48,766 nt of DNA from positions 1 through 48,766 of the forward strand of contig JANLFV010000011.1 in NCBI GenBank assembly GCA_024653345.1. The letters run 5' to 3'. Source of the stretch: Candidatus Acetothermia bacterium. Lineage in GTDB: Bacteria > Bipolaricaulota > Bipolaricaulia > RBG-16-55-9 > JANLFV01. Under the pieces are notes generated by a model, which saw only the letters and a program-made list of their open reading frames with translations, did not search any database and had not been told where the DNA came from. Below are positions 1 to 15,185 of this stretch, one piece after another (the stretch's first letter is position 1; the number at the start of each line of letters is the position of its first letter). The position numbers and the translations under genes were made by a program.

Positions 1-440
1 GCCCGGTATTCCCGAAGGGGATGTCCACCAATGTCCCGGCCTCCTCACCTCCTGAGCCCTCCATCCCCAGGGCCTGGGCCGCCGCTTCGCTCTCCTCGGT
101 GGTGATGACCTCGTAAGCCTCAGCCTTCCCCAGCCTCATCTTCAATCCCAAAGAGGCCAATCTGGTCCTGAGAAGAGCGAAGTCCTCATCGCTTTTGACC
201 TCCTTGAGCGCCGCCTTCCGCTCCTTCCCCGAAAGGGGGACCACGTCAGCCTCGCCCGTCCCTTCAGAATCATCGGACCCCTCCGAGTCGAGGGCTGTCA
301 CGCCTCCATCCTGGCTAACTCCTCCTCGATCCAAGCCGATGAGCTGCTGGATGGCAGAGGTGCAGCCCGTTGTGGCGAGGGCGAGGAGGGCCAGGACCGC
401 CAAGACCGAAAGACTCCTAACTACCCCCCCCCTTAAACAT
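1..440 (-). CDS. Secreted lipoprotein, partial, out of frame at a G9 tract
   Basis: Reading leftwards, an open frame runs without a stop to the window edge. It encodes a hydrophobic signal segment (SVLAVLALLALATTGC) ending in a lipobox-like TTGC, then a low-complexity acidic Ser/Gly/Asp stretch and a charged domain, as in an exported lipoprotein. The best start is ATG at 440-438, behind the strong SD AAGGAGG (457-451). That ATG is one base out of frame with the lipoprotein because of nine consecutive G (424-432 on the plus strand as C). With eight G it would read MFKGGVV-RSLSVLAV. A GTG at 451-449 is in frame as the sequence stands, but it overlaps the SD and is a poor start. The protein family is not recognised, and the C-terminus lies outside the window. 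Confidence 0.6.
424..432 (-). repeat. G9 homopolymer just after the lipoprotein start codon
   Basis: Nine C on the plus strand are nine G in the coding strand, starting at the third codon after ATG 440. Loss of one G would join the ATG to the lipoprotein frame. The tract is either a slipped-strand switch or an assembly homopolymer error. Confidence 0.8.
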
Positions 441-464: not shown

Positions 465-494
465 TTTATACACCTAAGACCCCCTGCCTGTCAA
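465..494 (-). promoter_or_regulatory. Sigma70-type promoter of the lipoprotein gene
   Basis: On the minus strand a perfect TTGACA (494-489) is followed after 18 nt by TATAAA (470-465). The predicted transcript start lies near 458, right at the SD AAGGAGG before ATG 440. The untranslated leader would therefore be only about 18 nt. Confidence 0.7.
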
Positions 495-3206: not shown

Positions 3207-4691
3207 CTAGAATCCGATCCTCAGGCTGGTCAGCACATACTCCAAGCCAGTGGGGGTGAACCTCGCGCTCAGGAGGAAGCCGAGCTCAGCGGGGGCGAGC
3301 TGGAGCGCGAACTCCGTCGATTGGAGCTGCCCCTGGCCGAAGACCGTGAGGTTGCTCAGCTCCCAAGGGCCGGCCCGCACGACCGCGCTGAGGAGCTGGC
3401 CTATCTCCTCCCCCGGGACTATCGTCGTCGTGCTCCTCACGGAGAGCCCCGGTGAGAGCGGCAAGAGGAGGGTTACCGTCGCGCGGGCGAGCTCGAGCTG
3501 GGGATCATAGTTCAGGACGATGCCCCAAAGATCGTTGGTGGCGGTGAGGGCCACCGAGCTGACCAGCAGGGCCGGCCAGAGCTCGAGGGAGGCGTTCACC
3601 GTCGCCAGCTCGGCCAGCTTGAACTGGAGGGCCAGCCGGGCCTCGACCGGCTCGGCCGGCCTGAAGGTCGTGCCGCTCCAGAATGTGACGCCTCCAATGG
3701 AGATCCCCGAGATGGTGACCCGCTCGTAGGAGAGGGGGTGGTCGCAGCCTGGCCCGAGGCAGAGCCTGGTCTCCGAGGTGACCGTCGCCCCGGCGGCCGT
3801 CCTGCCCCGGACCGTGAGGGTGTCGTCGAACCGCGACGGGGTGGCAGCCGCCCAAGCGAGAAGGTTCCGGAGCTCCAGCCCTTGGAGCTGGCCTGCGAGG
3901 CTGAAGACCTTCCTTTGGAAGGTAAGCTCGCCAGGGCCCGGCCCTCGGGCGAAGATGAGCAGATCGCTGATCTGGAGCCAGCCCAGACTCGCGCGGAGGG
4001 TCAGCGCCTCATACTCCAGCCCGGCCAGGTCGAGCCTCCCCAGGCTGCTGACTGTCAGGCCCGAGAGGGTGACGGTGAAGTTCGCGTAGACCCGGAGGCC
4101 GAGGTCGAACTTAGTCGTCTGGGCCGCGGTGCTCTCAGGGTAAGCCGTGAGCGAGGCCGAGAGGGACCCGCTTATCTCGGGGGCCGGGCGCGGGCGGGGC
4201 ACAATCGTCACCTGGCTGAGATCGTCCTCCCCGAGGCGGCCATTGCCGGGGGTCGAGTCCGGATCGGCCTGATCGGCCTTAGCGACCTCGGCGGTGTTCA
4301 CGATCGCCAAGCCGGCGGTGCCGTTCTCCACCAACGCGGTGATCTCGAGCTTCGCGCTCGCCGAGGCGGCTAGCGAGCCGACGACCCACCGGCCGGTAGC
4401 AGGCTCGTATGAGCCCTGGCTCGCCCGATGCCAGACATAGGTTAGCCCGGCCGGGAGGGGGTCGCTGACCTCCACGCCCGTCGCGTCGTCCGGGCCCCGG
4501 TTGGCCAGGGTGATGGTATAAACGAGGGTCTCGCCCTCGTAGGGCGCGGGGCTGTCCGCCCTCTTGGTCAGCTCCAGGTCGGCGGTCTCACATCTTGCGA
4601 GCGCTGAGCAGATGCAGATAAACAGCAAGAAGGCCCATGATGACCAGAAGAACCGGCCCTCTGCTCTCGGAAGAGCCCCTCTCACCTCCAT
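3207..4691 (-). CDS. Exported DUF11-domain surface protein
   Basis: The ~494-residue product begins with a signal peptide: charged n-region, hydrophobic core FFWSSWAFLLFICICSALA. A DUF11 domain follows (about residues 35-130 of the mature part) with the family pattern TITLANRGPDDATGVEVSD and LPAGLTYV. The remaining ~330 residues are beta-rich, with many Thr/Ser/Leu strands, and not recognisable. No C-terminal anchor is seen. ATG 4691 is preferred over 4706 because GGGGGTGAG lies at SD distance before it. The start lies about 100 nt inside the end of the giant upstream gene, in another frame, so the DNA that encodes the giant protein's membrane anchor also encodes this signal peptide. It is probably translationally coupled and works in the same surface layer. 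Confidence 0.75.
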   Translation of the reverse strand: MEVRGALPRAEGRFFWSSWAFLLFICICSALARCETADLELTKRADSPAPYEGETLVYTITLANRGPDDATGVEVSDPLPAGLTYVWHRASQGSYEPATGRWVVGSLAASASAKLEITALVENGTAGLAIVNTAEVAKADQADPDSTPGNGRLGEDDLSQVTIVPRPRPAPEISGSLSASLTAYPESTAAQTTKFDLGLRVYANFTVTLSGLTVSSLGRLDLAGLEYEALTLRASLGWLQISDLLIFARGPGPGELTFQRKVFSLAGQLQGLELRNLLAWAAATPSRFDDTLTVRGRTAAGATVTSETRLCLGPGCDHPLSYERVTISGISIGGVTFWSGTTFRPAEPVEARLALQFKLAELATVNASLELWPALLVSSVALTATNDLWGIVLNYDPQLELARATVTLLLPLSPGLSVRSTTTIVPGEEIGQLLSAVVRAGPWELSNLTVFGQGQLQSTEFALQLAPAELGFLLSARFTPTGLEYVLTSLRIGF

Positions 4692-7600
4692 ACCTCTCAC
4701 CCCCATTACTGCCGAAAGAATACGGTTGGTCCGTTGAATCCAGAGCTGTCCCCGCTGATCCCGCTAGCACGGCCACAGGCTGACCGGCTGTCCCTTCCAC
4801 AGGCCGGAGGCAGACCCGCCGGGCCAGGACTTCCGCGAAGAAGCCGGAAGGCGCGCCCGCCCCCGCCCCGGCCCCGCTTGACTGCCACCACATAGTCGGG
4901 GGCAGTTGCATCTTCGCCCCGTCCGCGACCCGATCGAAGAAGGCCCCCAGCCGCCCACGGATGAAGACCGCCCGCTCTCGCTCGGAGAGATCAGTGAGTC
5001 GCTCCAGAGCCCCCACGGCCAGGCCGAGCTCGAGCGGGGTGTAACAGGATCTTTGCTCCCCCAGAGGGTTGGAGTAGCACTCCAATCCCGCGCAGCTCGC
5101 GATCATCGCTTGCCAGAACCGCTCCAGGGAATCGAAGGCCTCCTGGGCCAAGGAGAGATACCCTGGCTCTCCGAGCGACCGGTAAGCCGCGAGCAGGGCC
5201 CGGATCGCCGCGAGCTGGCTCGCGAGGCCCCTTGGGCGCTCGATCTCTGGCCTACCGGCAAGGATGCTGTAGCTATCGAAGTAGCCGCCGCGCCCGTCGG
5301 CAAGCCTCCTGATGAGGAACTCGACCTCCTTGCGCATCAGGTCGAGGGCCCTCTCCCGGATGGCCGGCAGGTCGGCCATCTTCTCGATCGCGCTCTCCAG
5401 GGCCGCCACCGCCAGGCCGAGGTTCGCGGTGGTGACCTCGTCGCCTCTTCTCCAGCCGCTCGGGCTGAACTCCGCCCGGTCGACGAGCCCGCCCAGGCCC
5501 TCATCGAGATGGAGCTCAAGGAGGTTGTCCAAGACCTGTGCGGCGAGTCGGGCCACCACCTCCGGCTTATCGGGGCCGAAGAGCGCCTCGAATTGCCGAT
5601 CCCGGGCGAGGCTGTAGGCCTCGCTCAGGCCCCAGAGCAAGGCGAGCTGGTCGAACAGCTCGCTCCCCGGGTCGAGGACCTCGTAGGCCAGCCTACCCTC
5701 GCGCAGGGCCGCCCCGACCGCGTGCGGGATGTAGGCCCGCCCGGTCGCCCCCAGCCGCTCTTGGGCCACTTCCTCGAGGAAGGCCAGCTTCCGCTCGATC
5801 GCCCCGAGGAGCACAAAGCCGTAGAACCTCTCGACCGGCTCGCGGCCGGCCTCCAGGAGCTCGGCGGCCTCCTGGGCCTCTCGCAGGAGCGTCATCCCGA
5901 TGGCCGAGCCCACAAGCCGCTCATCGAAGGTCCCTTCGTCCCACCTCCGGCTTGTGGGGTCCCGCAGCCTGAGGCTCCCGGAGTAGAACTCCAGCGCCAG
6001 AGGGCGCACCTCAGGAGGCTCCTCCAGCCCGGCCTCCGCGGCGTAGCGCTGCACCTCCGCGCCGTCGAGCGGGAGCCCCATCCCCGAGTAGAGCACCAGG
6101 TTCGTCAGGTTGGAGTCAGCGTAGTCCTCCGCCCAGGGGGCTACCTCCTCCATCTCGTAGGCCGCATACATCGCGATATCGGTCTGGAACCACGGCTCAG
6201 GCTCGGCCGAGAGCCCAAGGCAGGGCTCATCCGAGACGGTTAAGTCCAGGCAGAGCCGCTGCTGGAGGACCGGGGCCACTCCCCAGGGGCTCTCGATGAC
6301 CACGAGCGGGGCGATCTCGCCGAAGCCGTTCCCGTGGAAGATCTCGCAAGACCTCTCCGCGGTCGCCCCCGTGAGAGTCAGGGCTTGGGAGAGCTGCAAC
6401 GCCGCGGCATCGACGACCGCGCGGAAGGAGCGGCCCAGCCGCTCGAGGATCAGCTCGGCCCTCTCTCGTTCGGAGACCCGCGCGAGCTCGCGGAACGCCC
6501 CCACGAGGAGCCCTACCTCCAAGGGGGTATAGCAGTATCGCCTCTCCCGGCCGTCGGTCCAGGCGGCGTAAAGGCCGAGCCTCTCGTCCCAGAAGGAGCT
6601 CTCCAGGTAGGCGAAGGCCCCCTCCGCCGCCTCGAGGTAGCGCTTATCGGAGGTGAGCTGATAGGCAACCAATAGCCCGCGGACGGCCGCGAGCTGGGCG
6701 GCCAGGCTCTGGGCTGGGCCCAGCCCTCCCGGGGTCAATTCATCAGCGAACCCGCCCGAGGGGAGCCGGCGCGCAAGGAGCGCCTCCCCGAGCGCGGGGA
6801 TCAGGGGGGCCGCCTCCGGCAAGATCATCGCATGAGCCCGCTCGAGCGCGACCAGGAGGAGCCCGAGGCTCACCGTCGAGCTGGTCCGGGCAGGCTCCAT
6901 CCCCGGATTGTAGAGATCCCAAAGCCGGCCCTCCCCATCGCGATGGAGGGCCAGGATCGCGGCCAAGACCTCCTTCCCGAGCTTGAGCGCCTGTTCGTGA
7001 AGCTCGGCGGGGAAGAGCTGGCCCGCGCCGAAGAGCTCATTGCCCGCGGGGTCGGACCAGGCCACGAACTCCGCCAGCCCCCAGAGGAGCGTGAGCTGGT
7101 CGAAGAGCTGGCTCGACCGGTCGGTCGGCTCGTAGGCTACGGGCCGCCCCTGGCCGTCGAACCGCGGCTCGTAGGCGTGAGCGAAGTAGCGGATGCCCTT
7201 CTCCGGTAGCTCGAGCGCCAGCTCGCGGTCGAGCAGGAGGAGCTTGTTGACCATCGCCTCAGTGAGGACGAGCGCGAGGTAGCGGTCGAGCGGCCGGCCG
7301 GTCCCAAGGCGGGCTCGGGCCTCCATCACCTGTTTCACCAGGCTCATTCCCAGGGCGCTGGGGAGGATCCGCCGATCGTAGGCCGGCCAGGCCCCGCCGG
7401 GCCAGAGGTCGTCACTCCGCTCGCGATAGCGCGGGTCCCCGCCGGCGAACTCGACGAAGACCCAGCGCTCGTTCTCCGGCCGCTCGCCCGGCGCCAGGCC
7501 CACGAGCTGGGCATAGCTCGAGAGGCCCTCCTCGAGCGCCGCCTCGGGGGCGAGGCCCCTCTCCTCTGCTCGCTCCAAGATTCGCGGCCCAGAGGCGAGG

Positions 7601-10600
7601 GCTATCCCCACCTGGGAGGCCACGCTCACCTGGATCAGGTTAGCGATCGCATATTCCCTGGCCTCGGCCTGGGCCGTCCGGACCCAGCTCGGGAGGAGCG
7701 TCTCCAGCCGGAAGGGCCATAGCTTGGGAGAGGCCGCTAGAAGTTGGAACTCGCTCGCGGCGAACATGGCGATGTCCGTCTGGAACCAGACCGGCTCGGC
7801 TACGGCGTGGGCCTTCTCGCAGGGCAGTCCTGCCGGGGCCATCGGGATGTGGGCAGGGAGGCAGGCGGCGGAGCTATCGTCAGGATCGATATCATCGGGG
7901 ATATACCAGCTCTGGTCCGGCGGGATCGCCCGGCCGGTCACATCGACCCCGGTGGCCCGCATCACATCGCAGTAGGTCTCGCCATCCCGGACCGCGGCCG
8001 TGACGGTGGCCTCGAAGGTCAGGACCAGCGTCTCCCCGGGCCGGAGCGTCGCCCCGACAGCCCAGGAGAGGAGCGGGCCCGGGGCCCCGAGAGGGTCGAG
8101 GGTATAGAACCCGCCCGGCCACTCCGCGAATGTCGTCCCGGAGAGATAGGCGAACCCCTCGGGGAGGACATCGGTGAGGTTCACATCGTAGGCCGGGGCA
8201 TTCCCCACATTCGTGACCGTGAGCCTGAAGGTCACGGTCTCCCCCGGCTCGACCGGCGGGTTGACCCCGACCGCTTGGCCGGCCCTGGTGATCCCGACCA
8301 CGGCCTTCTCCGTCACTAGGGCCGGCATGGCCACGAGGAGGGTCACCGAGCTCGAGTCATCGGGATCGGTATCAGCGGGGACATCCTTGCCCCGATCGGG
8401 CAGGATGGGGTTCCCGGCCCCATCATTCCCCCGGGCTTGCATCACATTATCGTGGAAGCCGGGGAGCACATCCTCCAGCACGCTCGCGCTGAAGCTCAGG
8501 GTGAGCGCCTCCCCGGCATGGAGGGTGGCCCCGAGGGCCCAGGTGAGGGCCTGCCCCGCGATCGCCGGGTCGGCGGTCGAGCTCCCGCTCGGCCAGCTCG
8601 CGCTCGTCGAGCCCGGGATGTAGGCGAACCCCTGGGGGAGGAGGTCGGTGAGCTCCACATTGTAGGCTGTCCCGCTCCCGACATTCCGGACCATAAGCTC
8701 GAAGGTGATGATGTCCCCGGGCAGGAGGGGCTGCTCGGCCGGCTGGCCCCTCCTCTCGATGGCCGTGACCGCCTTTTCTGTCACCAGCGCCGGGACCGCG
8801 GCGGGGTGGACCGCCGAGCTGCAATCGTCGGGGTCCGTGTCCTGCGGGACGAGGGTGCTATTGTCCGGCGGGATCGGGTCGTTATTCCCCTCCCGGCCAG
8901 TTGCACACATCCGGTCGGTATAGCTCTTCAACTCCTCGACCGCCGAGGTCACGGCCGCCTGGAAGGTCAGGGCAAGGGCCTCGCCCGGGGCGAGCTCAGC
9001 GGAGAGGTCGAAGAAGAGGTCCGGCCCGGGGGCCCCCGCGGGGTCGGCTGTCGAGCTCCCGCTCGGCCAGACGGCTTGGGTCGTCCCCGGGAGGTAGGCG
9101 AACTCGACCGGCAGGGTATCGCTCAGGTCGACATCGAAGGCCCTTCCCTGGCCGACATTCGTCACTGTCAGCCGATAGCTGACGATGTCACCCGGCTCGA
9201 CCGGCTGGTCGGGCGAGATCGGCCCGCCGCCGCGGCGGAGCTCGAGGATCTCCTTATCGGTCACGAGGGCCGGGCAGGGGCAGGCCGCGCTCGTCTCGGC
9301 CACATTGTTCGCCTCATTGCACTCGCAGATCGCCCCTTCCTCGTCGAGGACGAGCCTGAAAGCATGAGTGATCCCGCACTTCAGCGGGACGGTGGTGAAC
9401 TCGAGGTGGTAGGCCCCGCCCGCGGGGATGTCCCGGACTTTGCTGTAGATCAGGTTGCCGTCGGCGTAGACCCGGATGGTCGCACTCTGGGCCGCTTCGC
9501 CCCCGAGGTTCCGGATCTCCGCGGTTATGGTGAAGGTGTCGTCCCCGTTGCAGACCGCGCTGAAGGCCAGCAGGCTGAGGTCAGGGTCGACCACGGAGAA
9601 GGAGGCGGCCCGGGCCTGGTTCTGGCCATTGCATTCGCAGACCTGGCCGTCGGGGTCAGCCGTGGCCGTGACCTGGTAATCGCCACAGGCGAGGACCTCG
9701 TCCAGCTTGACTTTAAGGGTCTGGGATTCGCCGTGCCCGAGCGGGACCGTGGTGACGGCCTCGCCTGTGGCGCCGCCGGTGATCCGCACGACTGTCCCCG
9801 CCGGAGCGGTGCCACAGCCCGCGTTCTCCACGGTCACGAGCACGGTCCCCTTGGTGCAGGCATCCGGGACATCGGGCACGGCCGCGGTGACCCTCAGATC
9901 GGGGAGGCTAGAGGTGTAAGTCTCGGAATAGCTATTGGCGCTCGAGCACTCGCAGGTCTGATTCAGGGGATCGACCGTGGCGGTGAAGGTGCAGCTACAG
10001 TCCGCGCAGTCGGCCCAGGGGCCGGTGATGGGGAAAGTTACCGTAGTGCTGGCGCCGGCCGCCAGTCCTGGCACGGTCTGGTCCGCGAAGCTCAAGCAGC
10101 CGTCGGTCAAGAGGCGGACCGCAAACGGCCCGGCCGGGCCGCAGCCCCGGTTCTCCACCATTACGGCCACGCTCCCGGAGATGCCGTCCCCGACGCAGCT
10201 CACTCCGCTGAAGTCGATGTCCGTCACTGCGAGATCAGGGTAGGTGATCTGCTTGGTGGCGCTGCACCTTGCGTTGTTTGTCCCGTCGCACTCGCAGATC
10301 GAGCCGGTGTAGTCTGCCTCGACATTGAGGGAGACGCCGCAATTGGCAGCGAGCTGGCATAGGTCCGCATTGATGGTATGGGGCGCGATGGTGAAGGTCT
10401 GGCTCCCGCCCGCGGGTATGTTCACGCCGGTGAAGGTTTGAGCCCACTGGTCGAGCTGGCTACCGCCGCAGCTCGGGACGCTGTAGAGGGTGAACCGGAC
10501 GGGGATGTTGGCCGTGAGGGCGCTCCCGCAGCCGCTGTTCGCTAAGGTCACCGTCCCGGAGACGAGGCTCTGGCCGTCGTCGAGGCAGGTGACGCTCAGG

Positions 10601-13600
10601 GCCTCCGCGCTCACCTCGATGTCCGGGATGGTGATCGTATAGCTCCGGCTCGTCGAGTTGTTGTTCTCCCGACACTCGCAGACCTCGCTAGCGGTGTCGA
10701 GGGTGACGGCGAAGGAGTAATTGCAGTGGGCGCAGCTCACCGGCCAGCCGGGGATGGTGATCGTCCTGGAGGAGCCGGCGTTGATCGGCAGGGTCCCGCC
10801 CAATCCGGTGAAGCTGCCCGAGACGGTCCAGCCGGTGGTGCTCTCGGTGAGCGTGAGCAAGAAGTCCTTGGTGACCGGCCCATCGCCGTTGTTCCGGATG
10901 CGGACTCGGACCAGCCCCGAGTAGTTCCCGTCCGCGGCGCAGGTGAGGCTCGGCATGATGTCGCTCGGGCTCAAGGTGAGGTCGGGGATCGCGGCCCGCG
11001 CGGTCCCCTGAGCCAATATTCCGCCTTCGCAGGTGTGCTCCCCGCTCGTGTTGGGGTCGCCGTCGAACGGCCCGCAGCCCCAGGCGGCCTGGGCGGTCTC
11101 AGTCCGCAGGGCCGAGGAGCAGTCGTTGTTCGGCTGGAGCAGCCGCGCGGTGAGATAGAAGCTCCGCGTCTCGCCCTGGGCCAGCGGCCCGAACTCCCAG
11201 CCCCACTTCTGGCCACCCATCGGGGTCGCGCTCGGGTCGGAGGAGACATATTCCAAGCTCGGCCCGATTGTATCCTCGAGCCTCACCCAGTCGGCCGCGG
11301 CCCCGGTGTTGGTCACATCGATCCGCCAGGTCACCCGGTTGCTCGGGTCATTGCAATCGGCCGGCTGGCCGGCCGACGGCTCGACCTGGGCCTTGCTCAC
11401 CGAGATGCTCGGGAGGCGGACCCCGAGGTAGAATCCACCCGCGGCCGAGCTGTAGAGAGCGCCGCAGACATTCCTGTAGACCGTCTGGGCCGAGAGGTTC
11501 CCTCCGGCGAAGGCGCACCCCGCGCGGATGCCGAACTGGGTCTCGATCGTCTCCCGGGCTCGCAGCTCGGCCAGCCCGGATATCTCATCTCTAGTCCAGG
11601 TGAGGGTGGAGCCCGCGATCGCCGGGTCCGAGCCGGGAGTCCAGGGGGCGCTCCCCTTCCGCCACTGGGTCGAGCCGGGGACATAGCTGATCCCGCTCGG
11701 GAGGGTCTCGCTCGCCTCGAGCTCGTAGACCGCGGAGTCGCCCGCGTTCTTGATCGTCAAGGTGGCCGGCTGGGTAGCGCACATATCGATCGGCGAGGCC
11801 GTATAGGAGGTGCTGACCACATTAGGGGTGGGGATCAGGACCCTCGAGCTATCGCTGGCCGGAGGCCGGCAGTCCTCCCCGCCGCAGCCGCAGCTGGTCC
11901 TGACCTCGTCGGTCAGGCCGGCGCAGGTCACCAAGTCCGCGGTCAGGCCGATCGTCCGGGTCTCCCCGGGGGCCATGGCCGCGATGAGCCAGGAGACGCC
12001 GTTGATCGGAGCGCCGGTGTGGTCTTGATTAGGGTTAGTCGTGACCCCACCTGAAGGCGTGACGGTAGAATCGGCATAGGCCAGTCCGCTCCCCAGGAGA
12101 TCATCGACCGAGACATCGTAGGCCCAGCCGGAGCCGCTGTTCACGACATAGATCGTCCAGCTCACCTGGTTCCGGGTGGCGTAGACCACCTCCGGGGTCT
12201 TGTAGACGAAGAGGTTCGCGGTCCGCATTAAGGAGGGTGTGTTCGTGGCCCCGACGGCGCAGCTCCCGCCGCAGAGGTCCTCGAAGAGGGCCGTGGCGGT
12301 CAGGTCCAGCCCGCGGTCGCACCGCTTCCTCAGCTCGGCGGTGATCACGGACCTGGCTCCATCTGGCGCGGCCGCGAAGAGGTCGCCGTAGCTCCACTCA
12401 TAGTAGGTCCCGAAGTCGGCAGGCGAGTTGCAGTCCGGGGGCAGGACATCCCCGCTGCAGACGATCGAGGATAGGTCCACGATGTAGTAGTTGAGGTTCG
12501 CGACCTGGAGCCGGACATTCCCGGGAGTCCCGCGGGTCTTGGTGAGGGTGATCGTGACGGGGTAGGTGCCGCACTCATCGATCATCGCCGCTAGGCCAGT
12601 GAGGCCCACGGCCATCGCGGGCGTGGTGGCCTCGACGAGGAGGGCATCATATTTCACGCATTCCCCGAGCTGGTCTGGATCGCAGTCCGGCCCGAGGTCG
12701 AGCGAGGACCAGGAGTAGAAGCTCTCCGAGCCGGGGCAGGAGGAGGGCTGGGACCCCGCGGTGACCTCCAGTTGATATGAGATCACCAGGGTATGGCCCC
12801 AGACGGGGGTTCCGCCCCAGGTCCCGTCGATAGCCTTGACCTGCAGTGTCCCTCCCGGGGTAGTGTCAATGATCGTGGCCGTGGCGGGACTCCCGTCAAT
12901 GGTGATCGAGATCGTCCCCGGCATATACTGCTGCTCATTGTCGGCATATTCGGTGAAGACCAGGTCGCCGAAGGTGATCTCGTCGAGGACCACACCCGCG
13001 GCGAAGCTGTAGGTGTTCGTATAATTGAACTCCGCGCACTTCTCTGCGGAGGAAGGCGAGGCCGCCTTCTGGGAGCCCACCAGCTCGCGGCATTGGATGG
13101 CGGTGGTCGTCGAGCTCGAGGCCGTCTTCTCGCAGCCGCAGCAGTCGGTGCCCCTCGCGGTGAGGGAGGCCGTGGCCGTGGTGTAGCAGTAGGCCACGGC
13201 CGGGACAGTGAGGATCACATCCACATCCAGGGGTGGCCCGGAGGCGGGGATAACCCAGGTGATCGTCCCTCCGGTCCCGTCCCCTCCGGGGGTCCAGGTC
13301 CCCCCGCCTGAATCCTCGACGGTGAACCCGGCGGGGACATCCATCGTCACTTGGACATCGCTCGTCGAGCCGCCGTCGCAAGAGGAGAGGCCGGAAGCGC
13401 CCGCTGAGACATGGTAGGTGGCACTCGTGAGGATATCCACCTCCACCGGCCCGGAGATGGAGGCAGAGACCGCGGGCGGCCCTTGCGGGCCGTAGTCTGT
13501 AGAGTAGCTCCCGAAGGCCACGGGCGGGCGGAACTCCTCGCCGCAGTCGTTCAAATAGATCGATTGATAGAAGAGCCTCCCGCTCGAGGCCCCGGCGCAC

Positions 13601-14736
13601 CAGTCCCCAGGGTAGCTCAGATCGAAGGCCAAGTCGAAGGACTCGCCCGGCCCGAGGTCGGTGAGGTGGAAGCAGGAGCCGTCGTAGCTCGCCCCGCCCT
13701 GGACATTCGAGACGACCAGGGGCGAGAAGTCCACGCAGATCCGGACCTCCCTGGCATTCCCGTCGCCGGTGCTGGTGACAGGTATGGCTACTGTCGTTCC
13801 GGCCGGCTCGCAGTAGGGCAGGGCGATGGCCGGCGGGGTGAAGTCCAGCAGCGGCTGGCCCAAGAGGAGGAGGATCGAGCCCGTGGCCGTCCCGCCCTGG
13901 AGGGCGGTGTCATAGCAGGTCTGGCCGTCGCAGCCGAAGCGGGCATCGGCCTTGTTCTCCAAGCCGGCGCAGGCCGCCACCCGGGCGGTGAGGCCGATCT
14001 CGACCTTCTCTCCTGGTTCCATTCCGGCGAGCGCGGGGATGTTCGTCTTGTCCCAGATGACGGTCTGGCCGAGGTTCGAGCCGGGCGGGCTGGAGGAGAC
14101 ATAGGCCAGCCCCGGGCCTAGGGCATCAGTTACCACCACATTGTGGATCGGCCCGAGGCCGGTGCTCTCCACGGCGATCGTCCAAGTGACCTCGTCCCCC
14201 ACCCTTGCGGAGATGACGGCTGGCTCCTTCGAGATGGTCACTGCCCCCGGCAGGACCTCGACTGACATGGAATCAGTGGCCTGCCCCGGACTCCCGCTCG
14301 CGCAATCCCTGAAGTCGACCCTCACTTGATCCGTCCCCGAGATGGCATCGCACGAGGTAGCCAGGTCGAACCGGACTGTGAGGCTCTCCCCCGGAGGGAG
14401 CTTATAGGGCGGCGATTGAACGATCCCATCGATGGCCCAGATGAGGTCCAGGCCGGCCTCCTGGGGGTCCGCATAGTAGTGCTCTCCGTTGGGGAGCGTG
14501 ACCTCGGATGTGCCGGCCACATAGGAGAAGCCCGCGTTGGGCCTGGTGCTGGTGACCACGATTTCACAGGCCTCCTCCGGCCCGTTATTGGTGAAGGTGA
14601 TCGTGAAGCTCCCTTGCTCGCACCAGCCGAGCGCGCTCGGGCCGGTGACCCCGACCTGGCCCTGCTGGGCGAGCGCGCTCGAGCCGAGGAACGCCAAACC
14701 CGCAAGCAGGGCCGAGACGACCACTCGCTCTAGCAT
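4588..14736 (-). CDS. Giant 3,382-residue DUF11/CARDB/helical-barrel surface protein
   Basis: ATG 14736 is chosen over the longer frame because AGAGGAGG sits 8 nt upstream and a clean signal peptide follows (VVVSALLAGLAFLGSSALAQ). Residues ~30-1240 hold repeated DUF11-like Ig-fold domains with many cysteines. Residues ~1240-1815 hold five CARDB-like repeats, each ending in Cys-Glu-Cys. Residues ~1820-2295 are three closely similar DUF11 units of about 160 residues. Two related alpha-helical domains follow (~2315-2800 and ~2847-3285), each beginning WFQTDIAM and carrying a CYTPLE motif, resembling the (alpha/alpha) barrel folds of glycan enzymes. A Gly/Ser linker, one membrane helix (VLLVIMGLLAVYLHLL) and a basic tail SARKM end the protein. 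It is probably a cell-surface stalk or adhesin presenting the helical domains near the membrane; function and substrate are unknown. Confidence 0.85.
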   Translation of the reverse strand: MLERVVVSALLAGLAFLGSSALAQQGQVGVTGPSALGWCEQGSFTITFTNNGPEEACEIVVTSTRPNAGFSYVAGTSEVTLPNGEHYYADPQEAGLDLIWAIDGIVQSPPYKLPPGESLTVRFDLATSCDAISGTDQVRVDFRDCASGSPGQATDSMSVEVLPGAVTISKEPAVISARVGDEVTWTIAVESTGLGPIHNVVVTDALGPGLAYVSSSPPGSNLGQTVIWDKTNIPALAGMEPGEKVEIGLTARVAACAGLENKADARFGCDGQTCYDTALQGGTATGSILLLLGQPLLDFTPPAIALPYCEPAGTTVAIPVTSTGDGNAREVRICVDFSPLVVSNVQGGASYDGSCFHLTDLGPGESFDLAFDLSYPGDWCAGASSGRLFYQSIYLNDCGEEFRPPVAFGSYSTDYGPQGPPAVSASISGPVEVDILTSATYHVSAGASGLSSCDGGSTSDVQVTMDVPAGFTVEDSGGGTWTPGGDGTGGTITWVIPASGPPLDVDVILTVPAVAYCYTTATASLTARGTDCCGCEKTASSSTTTAIQCRELVGSQKAASPSSAEKCAEFNYTNTYSFAAGVVLDEITFGDLVFTEYADNEQQYMPGTISITIDGSPATATIIDTTPGGTLQVKAIDGTWGGTPVWGHTLVISYQLEVTAGSQPSSCPGSESFYSWSSLDLGPDCDPDQLGECVKYDALLVEATTPAMAVGLTGLAAMIDECGTYPVTITLTKTRGTPGNVRLQVANLNYYIVDLSSIVCSGDVLPPDCNSPADFGTYYEWSYGDLFAAAPDGARSVITAELRKRCDRGLDLTATALFEDLCGGSCAVGATNTPSLMRTANLFVYKTPEVVYATRNQVSWTIYVVNSGSGWAYDVSVDDLLGSGLAYADSTVTPSGGVTTNPNQDHTGAPINGVSWLIAAMAPGETRTIGLTADLVTCAGLTDEVRTSCGCGGEDCRPPASDSSRVLIPTPNVVSTSYTASPIDMCATQPATLTIKNAGDSAVYELEASETLPSGISYVPGSTQWRKGSAPWTPGSDPAIAGSTLTWTRDEISGLAELRARETIETQFGIRAGCAFAGGNLSAQTVYRNVCGALYSSAAGGFYLGVRLPSISVSKAQVEPSAGQPADCNDPSNRVTWRIDVTNTGAAADWVRLEDTIGPSLEYVSSDPSATPMGGQKWGWEFGPLAQGETRSFYLTARLLQPNNDCSSALRTETAQAAWGCGPFDGDPNTSGEHTCEGGILAQGTARAAIPDLTLSPSDIMPSLTCAADGNYSGLVRVRIRNNGDGPVTKDFLLTLTESTTGWTVSGSFTGLGGTLPINAGSSRTITIPGWPVSCAHCNYSFAVTLDTASEVCECRENNNSTSRSYTITIPDIEVSAEALSVTCLDDGQSLVSGTVTLANSGCGSALTANIPVRFTLYSVPSCGGSQLDQWAQTFTGVNIPAGGSQTFTIAPHTINADLCQLAANCGVSLNVEADYTGSICECDGTNNARCSATKQITYPDLAVTDIDFSGVSCVGDGISGSVAVMVENRGCGPAGPFAVRLLTDGCLSFADQTVPGLAAGASTTVTFPITGPWADCADCSCTFTATVDPLNQTCECSSANSYSETYTSSLPDLRVTAAVPDVPDACTKGTVLVTVENAGCGTAPAGTVVRITGGATGEAVTTVPLGHGESQTLKVKLDEVLACGDYQVTATADPDGQVCECNGQNQARAASFSVVDPDLSLLAFSAVCNGDDTFTITAEIRNLGGEAAQSATIRVYADGNLIYSKVRDIPAGGAYHLEFTTVPLKCGITHAFRLVLDEEGAICECNEANNVAETSAACPCPALVTDKEILELRRGGGPISPDQPVEPGDIVSYRLTVTNVGQGRAFDVDLSDTLPVEFAYLPGTTQAVWPSGSSTADPAGAPGPDLFFDLSAELAPGEALALTFQAAVTSAVEELKSYTDRMCATGREGNNDPIPPDNSTLVPQDTDPDDCSSAVHPAAVPALVTEKAVTAIERRGQPAEQPLLPGDIITFELMVRNVGSGTAYNVELTDLLPQGFAYIPGSTSASWPSGSSTADPAIAGQALTWALGATLHAGEALTLSFSASVLEDVLPGFHDNVMQARGNDGAGNPILPDRGKDVPADTDPDDSSSVTLLVAMPALVTEKAVVGITRAGQAVGVNPPVEPGETVTFRLTVTNVGNAPAYDVNLTDVLPEGFAYLSGTTFAEWPGGFYTLDPLGAPGPLLSWAVGATLRPGETLVLTFEATVTAAVRDGETYCDVMRATGVDVTGRAIPPDQSWYIPDDIDPDDSSAACLPAHIPMAPAGLPCEKAHAVAEPVWFQTDIAMFAASEFQLLAASPKLWPFRLETLLPSWVRTAQAEAREYAIANLIQVSVASQVGIALASGPRILERAEERGLAPEAALEEGLSSYAQLVGLAPGERPENERWVFVEFAGGDPRYRERSDDLWPGGAWPAYDRRILPSALGMSLVKQVMEARARLGTGRPLDRYLALVLTEAMVNKLLLLDRELALELPEKGIRYFAHAYEPRFDGQGRPVAYEPTDRSSQLFDQLTLLWGLAEFVAWSDPAGNELFGAGQLFPAELHEQALKLGKEVLAAILALHRDGEGRLWDLYNPGMEPARTSSTVSLGLLLVALERAHAMILPEAAPLIPALGEALLARRLPSGGFADELTPGGLGPAQSLAAQLAAVRGLLVAYQLTSDKRYLEAAEGAFAYLESSFWDERLGLYAAWTDGRERRYCYTPLEVGLLVGAFRELARVSERERAELILERLGRSFRAVVDAAALQLSQALTLTGATAERSCEIFHGNGFGEIAPLVVIESPWGVAPVLQQRLCLDLTVSDEPCLGLSAEPEPWFQTDIAMYAAYEMEEVAPWAEDYADSNLTNLVLYSGMGLPLDGAEVQRYAAEAGLEEPPEVRPLALEFYSGSLRLRDPTSRRWDEGTFDERLVGSAIGMTLLREAQEAAELLEAGREPVERFYGFVLLGAIERKLAFLEEVAQERLGATGRAYIPHAVGAALREGRLAYEVLDPGSELFDQLALLWGLSEAYSLARDRQFEALFGPDKPEVVARLAAQVLDNLLELHLDEGLGGLVDRAEFSPSGWRRGDEVTTANLGLAVAALESAIEKMADLPAIRERALDLMRKEVEFLIRRLADGRGGYFDSYSILAGRPEIERPRGLASQLAAIRALLAAYRSLGEPGYLSLAQEAFDSLERFWQAMIASCAGLECYSNPLGEQRSCYTPLELGLAVGALERLTDLSERERAVFIRGRLGAFFDRVADGAKMQLPPTMWWQSSGAGAGAGAPSGFFAEVLARRVCLRPVEGTAGQPVAVLAGSAGTALDSTDQPYSFGSNGGERYGGERGSSESRGPVLLVIMGLLAVYLHLLSARKM
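4880..7790 (-). repeat. Duplicated helical (alpha/alpha barrel-like) domains in the giant protein
   Basis: Two homologous ~450-480-residue copies share an opening WFQTDIAM(F/Y)AA, a middle block with FDQL(T/A)LLWGL, a run of the type GLASQLAAIRALLAAY (copy 2) or AQSLAAQLAAVRGLLVAY (copy 1), and a closing (R/S)CYTPLE or YCYTPLE followed by SERERA. The copies have diverged well beyond simple recent duplication. The helical periodicity resembles six-hairpin glycosidase or epimerase-like toroids, but catalytic residues cannot be assigned by eye. Confidence 0.7.
7850..9285 (-). repeat. Three tandem DUF11 repeats of about 480 nt
   Basis: Units begin near 9273, 8793 and 8325 with PALVT(D/E)K and contain TNVG or RNVGSGTAY, LPEGFAYL-type and DTDPDD(S/C)S motifs. 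Two units share the ten-residue string WPSGSSTADP with near-identical DNA, so unequal recombination could change copy number. Confidence 0.8.
9290..11010 (-). repeat. Five CARDB-like repeats with a conserved Cys-Glu-Cys
   Basis: CEC codons lie at 10672-10680, 10288-10296, 9946-9954, 9631-9639 and 9319-9327, a period of 312-384 nt. Each follows an Asp-Pro or Asp-rich turn and precedes an N-rich segment (RENNNS, DGTNNA, SSANSY, NGQNQA, NEANNV). This is the place where ordinary CARDB domains have an acidic E-x-N-E-x-N-N motif. The cysteine pair is probably oxidised outside the cell. Confidence 0.75.
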
Positions 14737-14766
14737 TTCCGATGCCTCCTCTGTGGACCCTGGTCT

Positions 14767-14796
14767 CTTATAGCACGACTCCCCCCCCCGAGTCAA
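14767..14796 (-). promoter_or_regulatory. Promoter of the giant gene with a G9 tract in its spacer
   Basis: Minus strand: TTGACT (14796-14791), an 18-nt spacer C-G9-AGTCGTGC, then TATAAG (14772-14767). The predicted start near 14760 gives a leader of about 24 nt that carries the SD. Nine G occupy half of the spacer, so gain or loss of one G changes box spacing (17 nt with G8). Homopolymer spacers of this kind control phase-variable surface genes in other bacteria. Confidence 0.75.
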
Positions 14797-14904: not shown

Positions 14905-14933
14905 TTGCCCCCGGCTTGCGGTTGTGTTATACT
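14905..14933 (+). promoter_or_regulatory. secG promoter
   Basis: TTGCCC (14905-14910), 17-nt spacer, and an extended -10 TGT-TATACT (14925-14933). It lies 24 nt before the secG ATG and is divergent from the giant gene's promoter. Confidence 0.6.
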
Positions 14934-14957: not shown

Positions 14958-15185
14958 ATGCTTAGGGCGATAATCATCGTGCTGTTCGTGCTCGATGCCG
15001 TGGCCCTCACGGGGATCATCCTCCTCCAGATGAGCCGCCACGCTGGGCTCGGGGGGGCCTTCGGCGCGGGCGGGAGATACACTGTCTTCGGCCGGGATGA
15101 GACGAAGGACCCCAAGAGGACCGCCACGGCCTGGCTCGCGGGGGGATTCCTCTTCCTGGGGTTCCTCCTGTCGATCATCCGTTAG
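14958..15185 (+). CDS. secG: Preprotein translocase subunit SecG
   Basis: The 75-residue protein has the SecG plan. An N-terminal membrane helix (IIIVLFVLDAVALTGIILLQ) is followed by a Gly-rich cytoplasmic loop (GLGGAFGAGGRYTVFG) and a second helix (WLAGGFLFLGFLLSII). SecG sits beside SecYE and assists SecA-driven export. The start at ATG 14958 is chosen over the longer frame because the added 22 residues are not SecG-like and lie across the promoter. AAGG stands 10 nt upstream. The gene is followed at once by the SD of the ABC ATPase gene, so the two are probably co-transcribed. Confidence 0.9.
   Translation: MLRAIIIVLFVLDAVALTGIILLQMSRHAGLGGAFGAGGRYTVFGRDETKDPKRTATAWLAGGFLFLGFLLSIIR

Follow-up and report, generated by a model that had tools for sequence, protein, structure and literature searches.

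A poly-G promoter spacer upstream of a giant, putatively surface-located protein as a probable phase-variation locus in an uncultured Bipolaricaulota bacterium

What is the function of nine consecutive guanines between the -35 and -10 boxes of a gene for a giant exported protein? This question is raised by a stretch of 48,766 nucleotides (here called the window) that represents contig C2 of the assembly for a Candidatus Acetothermia bacterium (G000; 1.71 Mb, 31 contigs, GC content ~65%). On the minus strand, TTGACT (-35 box, 14791..14796) is followed by C, GGGGGGGGG, AGTCGTGC and TATAAG (-10 box, 14767..14772), with the G run located at 14781-14789. The complete spacer, consisting of C, G9 and AGTCGTGC, measures exactly 18 nt (14773-14790), such that a homopolymer of more than eight residues resides between recognisable boxes at near-canonical spacing. 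Boxes, spacer length and the number of G residues had all been proposed in a sequence-only reading and are confirmed. The trinucleotide TGC directly 5' of TATAAG (14775-14773) is a motif of the extended -10 type (TGn). As judged from the position of the -10 box, transcription is predicted to start at 14760, ~7 nt past the box, and a Shine-Dalgarno sequence, AGGAGG (14745..14750), is present 8 nt 5' of the ATG at 14736. The gene (4588..14736, minus strand) encodes a protein of 3,382 aa, in which an N-terminal signal peptide was recognised by inspection. The protein contains DUF11 and CARDB repeats, and its C-terminus is hydrophobic. The promoter thus belongs to a gene for an exported protein with a putative location at the cell surface. 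The protein shares up to 80% identity with a protein of Ca. Acetothermia bacterium RSWS19, and most of its further relatives carry the label Ca. Bipolaricaulota. The intergenic region is bounded by the divergently oriented secG gene (14958..15185, plus strand; PF03840, E 3.6e-14), for which a sigma-70 scan yielded a promoter-like site at 14905-14933 on the plus strand. The focal promoter was not listed in a standard sigma-70 scan of the window because TATAAG lacks the final T. The C-terminal part of the giant protein (4591-7869, minus strand) contains an internal duplication with two copies of the motif WFQTDIAM, and gave a weak match, below the cut-off, to the C-terminus of D-glucuronyl C5-epimerase (E 2.5e-4).

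We consider it likely that the G9 tract constitutes a transcriptional contingency (phase-variation) locus, which would operate by slipped-strand mispairing in the promoter spacer. A run of nine G in this position should be prone to such mispairing, and each G gained or lost would shift the distance between the boxes around the optimum of 17-18 nt. This would alter the engagement of both boxes by a sigma-70-type RNA polymerase and result in a range of expression levels for the giant protein within a population. The 18-nt spacer in the assembled consensus may then represent an active state, and the 19-20-nt spacers of other tract-bearing promoters in this genome may represent weak states. The TGn motif suggests that the effect is graded, as in a rheostat, rather than a strict ON/OFF switch, and changes in spacing may be cushioned by this extended -10. 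Loss of mismatch repair was rejected as a source of instability since MutS is present in G000, as it is in 42/60 genomes. Slippage at the focal tract would therefore have to occur despite MutS.

Promoters of this architecture are established elsewhere. In Neisseria, the lengths of the spacer homopolymers of porA (poly-G) and fetA (poly-C) set box spacing and transcription (PMC5320596; porA also PMC7864442), and the parallel to Neisseria homopolymer spacers drawn in the sequence-only reading is taken up here in the form of these two genes, which show the same architecture (PMC5320596). As in porA and fetA, the focal homopolymer lies between the -35 and -10 boxes of a gene for a surface protein, which is a putative one here. 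In contrast to them, the genes concerned are unrelated and belong to a distant, uncultured phylum, and variation at the focal tract and its effect on expression are predictions here. In Treponema pallidum, several poly-G promoter tracts precede genes for putative outer-membrane proteins, tp0126 and tpr, and a spacing of 17 nt is optimal for tp0126 (PMC7864442). The occurrence of several poly-G promoter tracts in one genome is shared with this organism. However, T. pallidum is a host-restricted pathogen, its genes are unrelated, and length variation within an isolate has been measured there while it is predicted for the focal tract.

Conservation of the tract was assessed in a second species of the same genus (G001). 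The single run of eight or more G in its 1.2 Mb is the G9 in the promoter of the orthologous giant gene (TTGACC-G9-CAGGTGTGC-TATTAA), where the spacer is again 18 nt long. In the alignment of the two loci, TTGACT is paired with TTGACC (congener locus L055) and the counterpart of the -10 box is TGCTATTAA. The flanking intergenic DNA has clearly diverged, whereas the core consisting of box, tract and box has diverged much less. The orthologue of the giant gene in L051 and the FG-GAP orthologue in G054 are devoid of a tract, so the spacer tract is not obligatory. For the giant-gene homologues in L050, L052, L053 and L054, either the contig ends or no tract is present at the promoter.

In principle, these observations could also be explained by a static promoter element, i.e., a fixed run that sets promoter strength without any switching, be it via DNA shape or as a site for a regulator or an alternative sigma factor. 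The identity of both G9 and the 18-nt spacer in the two congeners is in line with this explanation. We nevertheless regard it as unlikely. At sibling loci, the tracts change in length while their flanks stay identical, the spacers harbouring tracts in the phylum vary from 14 to 21 nt, and no specific base motif is kept because poly-G and poly-C versions both occur. Two species-level genomes, G020 and G044, share a block of ~4.8 kb with 2 substitutions. The sole indel is located in a promoter spacer (G10 vs G9), and the FG-GAP protein encoded behind it is 100% identical. Over a shared stretch of about 3.2 kb, G006 and G010 are 96.5% identical. Here, C11 vs C9 is the sole indel of the first ~2.3 kb and changes the spacer to the TATACA box from 19 to 17 nt. 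In G012, promoters of paralogous lipoprotein genes carry C7, C9, C7 and C8. In a draft genome, a difference of one base might in principle stem from errors in the sequencing or assembly of homopolymers. Differences of two and four bases are less easily explained in this way. Differences in length between near-identical copies are thus seen at sibling loci. At the focal promoter, the two species compared both carry G9, with no difference seen. Near a contig end in G042 (C1; L117:1675-13300), a series of related promoters with the poly-G spacers G7, G8, G11 and G11 was observed together with small exported proteins.

Alternatively, the tract could vary in length as we propose but act by another route, for example by altering a regulator site instead of box spacing, as has been described for opc in Neisseria. 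Precedents have been described (PMC7864442), and the TGn extended -10 beside TATAAG could lessen the importance of the -35 box. On the other hand, the boxes directly flank the tract at a near-canonical distance, which is most simply interpreted in terms of spacing. We judge action by another route to be distinctly improbable and prefer a slippage-dependent change in spacing as the explanation.

Long G/C runs are scarce in the source genome. Eleven runs of 8+ and five of 9+ were found in 1.71 Mb, compared with ~362 and ~130, respectively, expected from a first-order Markov model of the window scaled to the size of the genome. This corresponds to an about 25- to 30-fold depletion. Four of the five 9+ runs are situated in -35/-10 spacers and the fifth at the start of a lipoprotein coding sequence. 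In addition to the focal tract (C2:14781, G9, TTGACT-18-TATAAG), the spacer runs comprise G10 in front of a gene for an FG-GAP protein (C4:4328, TTGACA-20-TATAAT), G9 at C9:25828 (TTGACA-20-TAGCAT) and C10, where the G run is on the opposite strand, in front of a lipoprotein gene (C30:26853, TTGAAA-20-TATAAA). A G8 spacer precedes the gene for a small exported protein (C11:195091, TTGACA-19-TATAAT). The focal locus would then be one of a set together with those on C4, C11, C30 and C9. Pairs of the type TTGAC-N14-21-TANNNT occur 226 times in the genome, as opposed to 84 times for the reversed pattern. By chance, 0.015 of the 11 tracts would be expected in a spacer, or 0.15 if only 10% of the genome were open to any of the tracts and promoters. 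Three tracts match a strict promoter pattern (P = 5e-7; 5e-4 under 10% confinement), and the focal tract (TATAAG) and that on C30 (TTGAAA) match a looser one. All of these counts rest on pattern searches and depend on the box definitions used. Among the listed promoter pairs without tracts, the spacer is 17 nt in 46/94 and 18 nt in 26/94, with G runs of at most 6. The focal spacer of 18 nt falls within this norm of 17-18 nt, and the other tract-bearing promoters have 19-20 nt.

The survey was extended to 100 genomes of the Bipolaricaulota, with one genome per species. It yielded 18 spacers with G8+ and nine with C8+ (27 in total), and the reversed-pattern controls gave 0 matches in either search. 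When G8+ runs were instead sought upstream of the -35 box as a control for position, six matches were obtained, 1 of them longer than 8, compared with 12 spacer matches for G9+. Runs of exactly 7 were left out as a mixed signal, as many are found 5' of housekeeping genes at normal spacing. According to a simple home-made predictor, an exported product is encoded downstream of 9+ runs at 15/21 loci, vs 2/15 distinct loci with non-tract promoters. Note that the loci include several orthologues or paralogues and are thus not all independent. The products encoded behind tract-bearing promoters include FG-GAP repeat proteins, a laminin-G/DUF11 protein and lipoproteins. Some runs of exactly 8 and one C9 precede genes for cytosolic proteins, such as hpf, at a normal spacer of 17 nt. 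The GC content of ~65% and the exact-8 runs in front of housekeeping genes might suggest that the homopolymer is neutral or arose by chance in intergenic DNA rich in GC. This explanation is hardly tenable and was rejected on the basis of the Markov expectation and the reversed-pattern and upstream-position controls: long runs are depleted genome-wide, yet the longest sit in promoter spacers or at a lipoprotein start, the reversed patterns gave no matches, and the focal G9 is conserved in the congener, which has no other G8+ run. The proposal of the earlier reading that this is a promoter tunable by slippage is supported by conservation in G001, recurrence in the phylum, the bias towards exported products and tract-length differences at sibling loci, from which we infer variation of the focal tract itself.

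The window contains two runs of G8+, both on the minus strand, and the second one (424..432) is also a G9. As a second G9 in the window, on a lipoprotein, it had been cited as an argument against chance. The tract is real and the argument was right in spirit, but the run is located in the start of the coding region, covering codons 3-6, and not in a promoter spacer. The gene (1..440, minus strand, ATG at 440) runs past the contig end and is frameshifted in the assembly. With G9, translation yields MFKGGGS followed by a stop, and the signal peptide and the lipobox (ATTGC) lie in the shifted frame. In-frame lengths are G5, G8 and G11. Its promoter (TTGACA-N18-TATAAA, 465..494, minus strand), which has G5 in the spacer, is almost identical in a paralogue in the same genome (C11:1361, minus strand). 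The promoter and start regions of the two genes are nearly identical base by base and differ by G9 vs G5. The G5 copy is in frame (MFKGVVRSL, followed by a lipobox). A GTG at 451, which would be in frame at G9, was rejected as the true start for two reasons: it would overlap with the Shine-Dalgarno sequence, and the reading frame of the paralogue begins at the downstream ATG. The tract in the 5' coding region thus sets the reading frame, with one copy in frame and one out of frame, these copies being paralogues and not alleles. No long G/C run was detected in the regions around the lipoprotein homologues of G005, G008 and G013. Translational phase variation through frameshifts in a homopolymer of the 5' coding region is known from Neisseria, Campylobacter and Helicobacter. 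The pair of an out-of-frame G9 at codons 3-6 and an in-frame G5 paralogue resembles these systems. It differs from them in that it is known from assemblies and in that a frameshift and a spacer-type locus are combined in one window. The lipoprotein tract would accordingly act by frameshift as a second, translational contingency locus, at which changes in length may be reversible at the population level, and would represent the frameshift version of the same strategy.

The arrangement itself is already known. What is new is its place, an unexpected phylum. Bipolaricaulota are a deep-branching phylum from geothermal and anaerobic environments, and most of its members are uncultured. Homopolymer switching in promoter spacers has mainly been described in pathogens adapted to a host, in which it is usually explained by immune escape. 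Judging from the genomes, it is very probable that these bacteria raise and lower the expression of surface genes through slips during DNA copying. We are inclined, with less assurance, to go further and propose that genome-wide poly-G/poly-C promoter-spacer switches, i.e., a phasome, allow them to vary their surface proteins and lipoproteins. The benefit may lie in resistance to phages or in attachment and not in the evasion of host immunity. If true, phase variation by simple repeats would extend far beyond bacteria that live with a host. The phylum is uncultured and apparently free-living, and the existence of such a set in it argues for other uses of stochastic variation at the cell surface, relating to phages, attachment or community interactions. 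A search of open-licence papers returned no report of phase variation in Bipolaricaulota or Acetothermia, which is a lead on novelty and not proof of it. On the practical side, the consensus of a lone metagenome-assembled genome conceals ON and OFF states, and genes such as that for the lipoprotein in the window may look broken.

Some features of the other tract-bearing loci of the source genome deserve mention. The lipoprotein gene behind the C10 promoter on C30 (L113:3908-6392) ends in a TGA, after which an ORF of 651 aa follows. It looks interrupted, because several homologues in other genomes consist of one continuous ORF of about 740-960 aa. On C9 (L116:6846-7235), a DDE transposase fragment ends just 5' of the promoter-like site with G9, and no clear gene is present within 200 nt downstream of this site. 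On C11 (L115:4194-6881), a gene for a DnaB helicase carries an intein and a LAGLIDADG domain.
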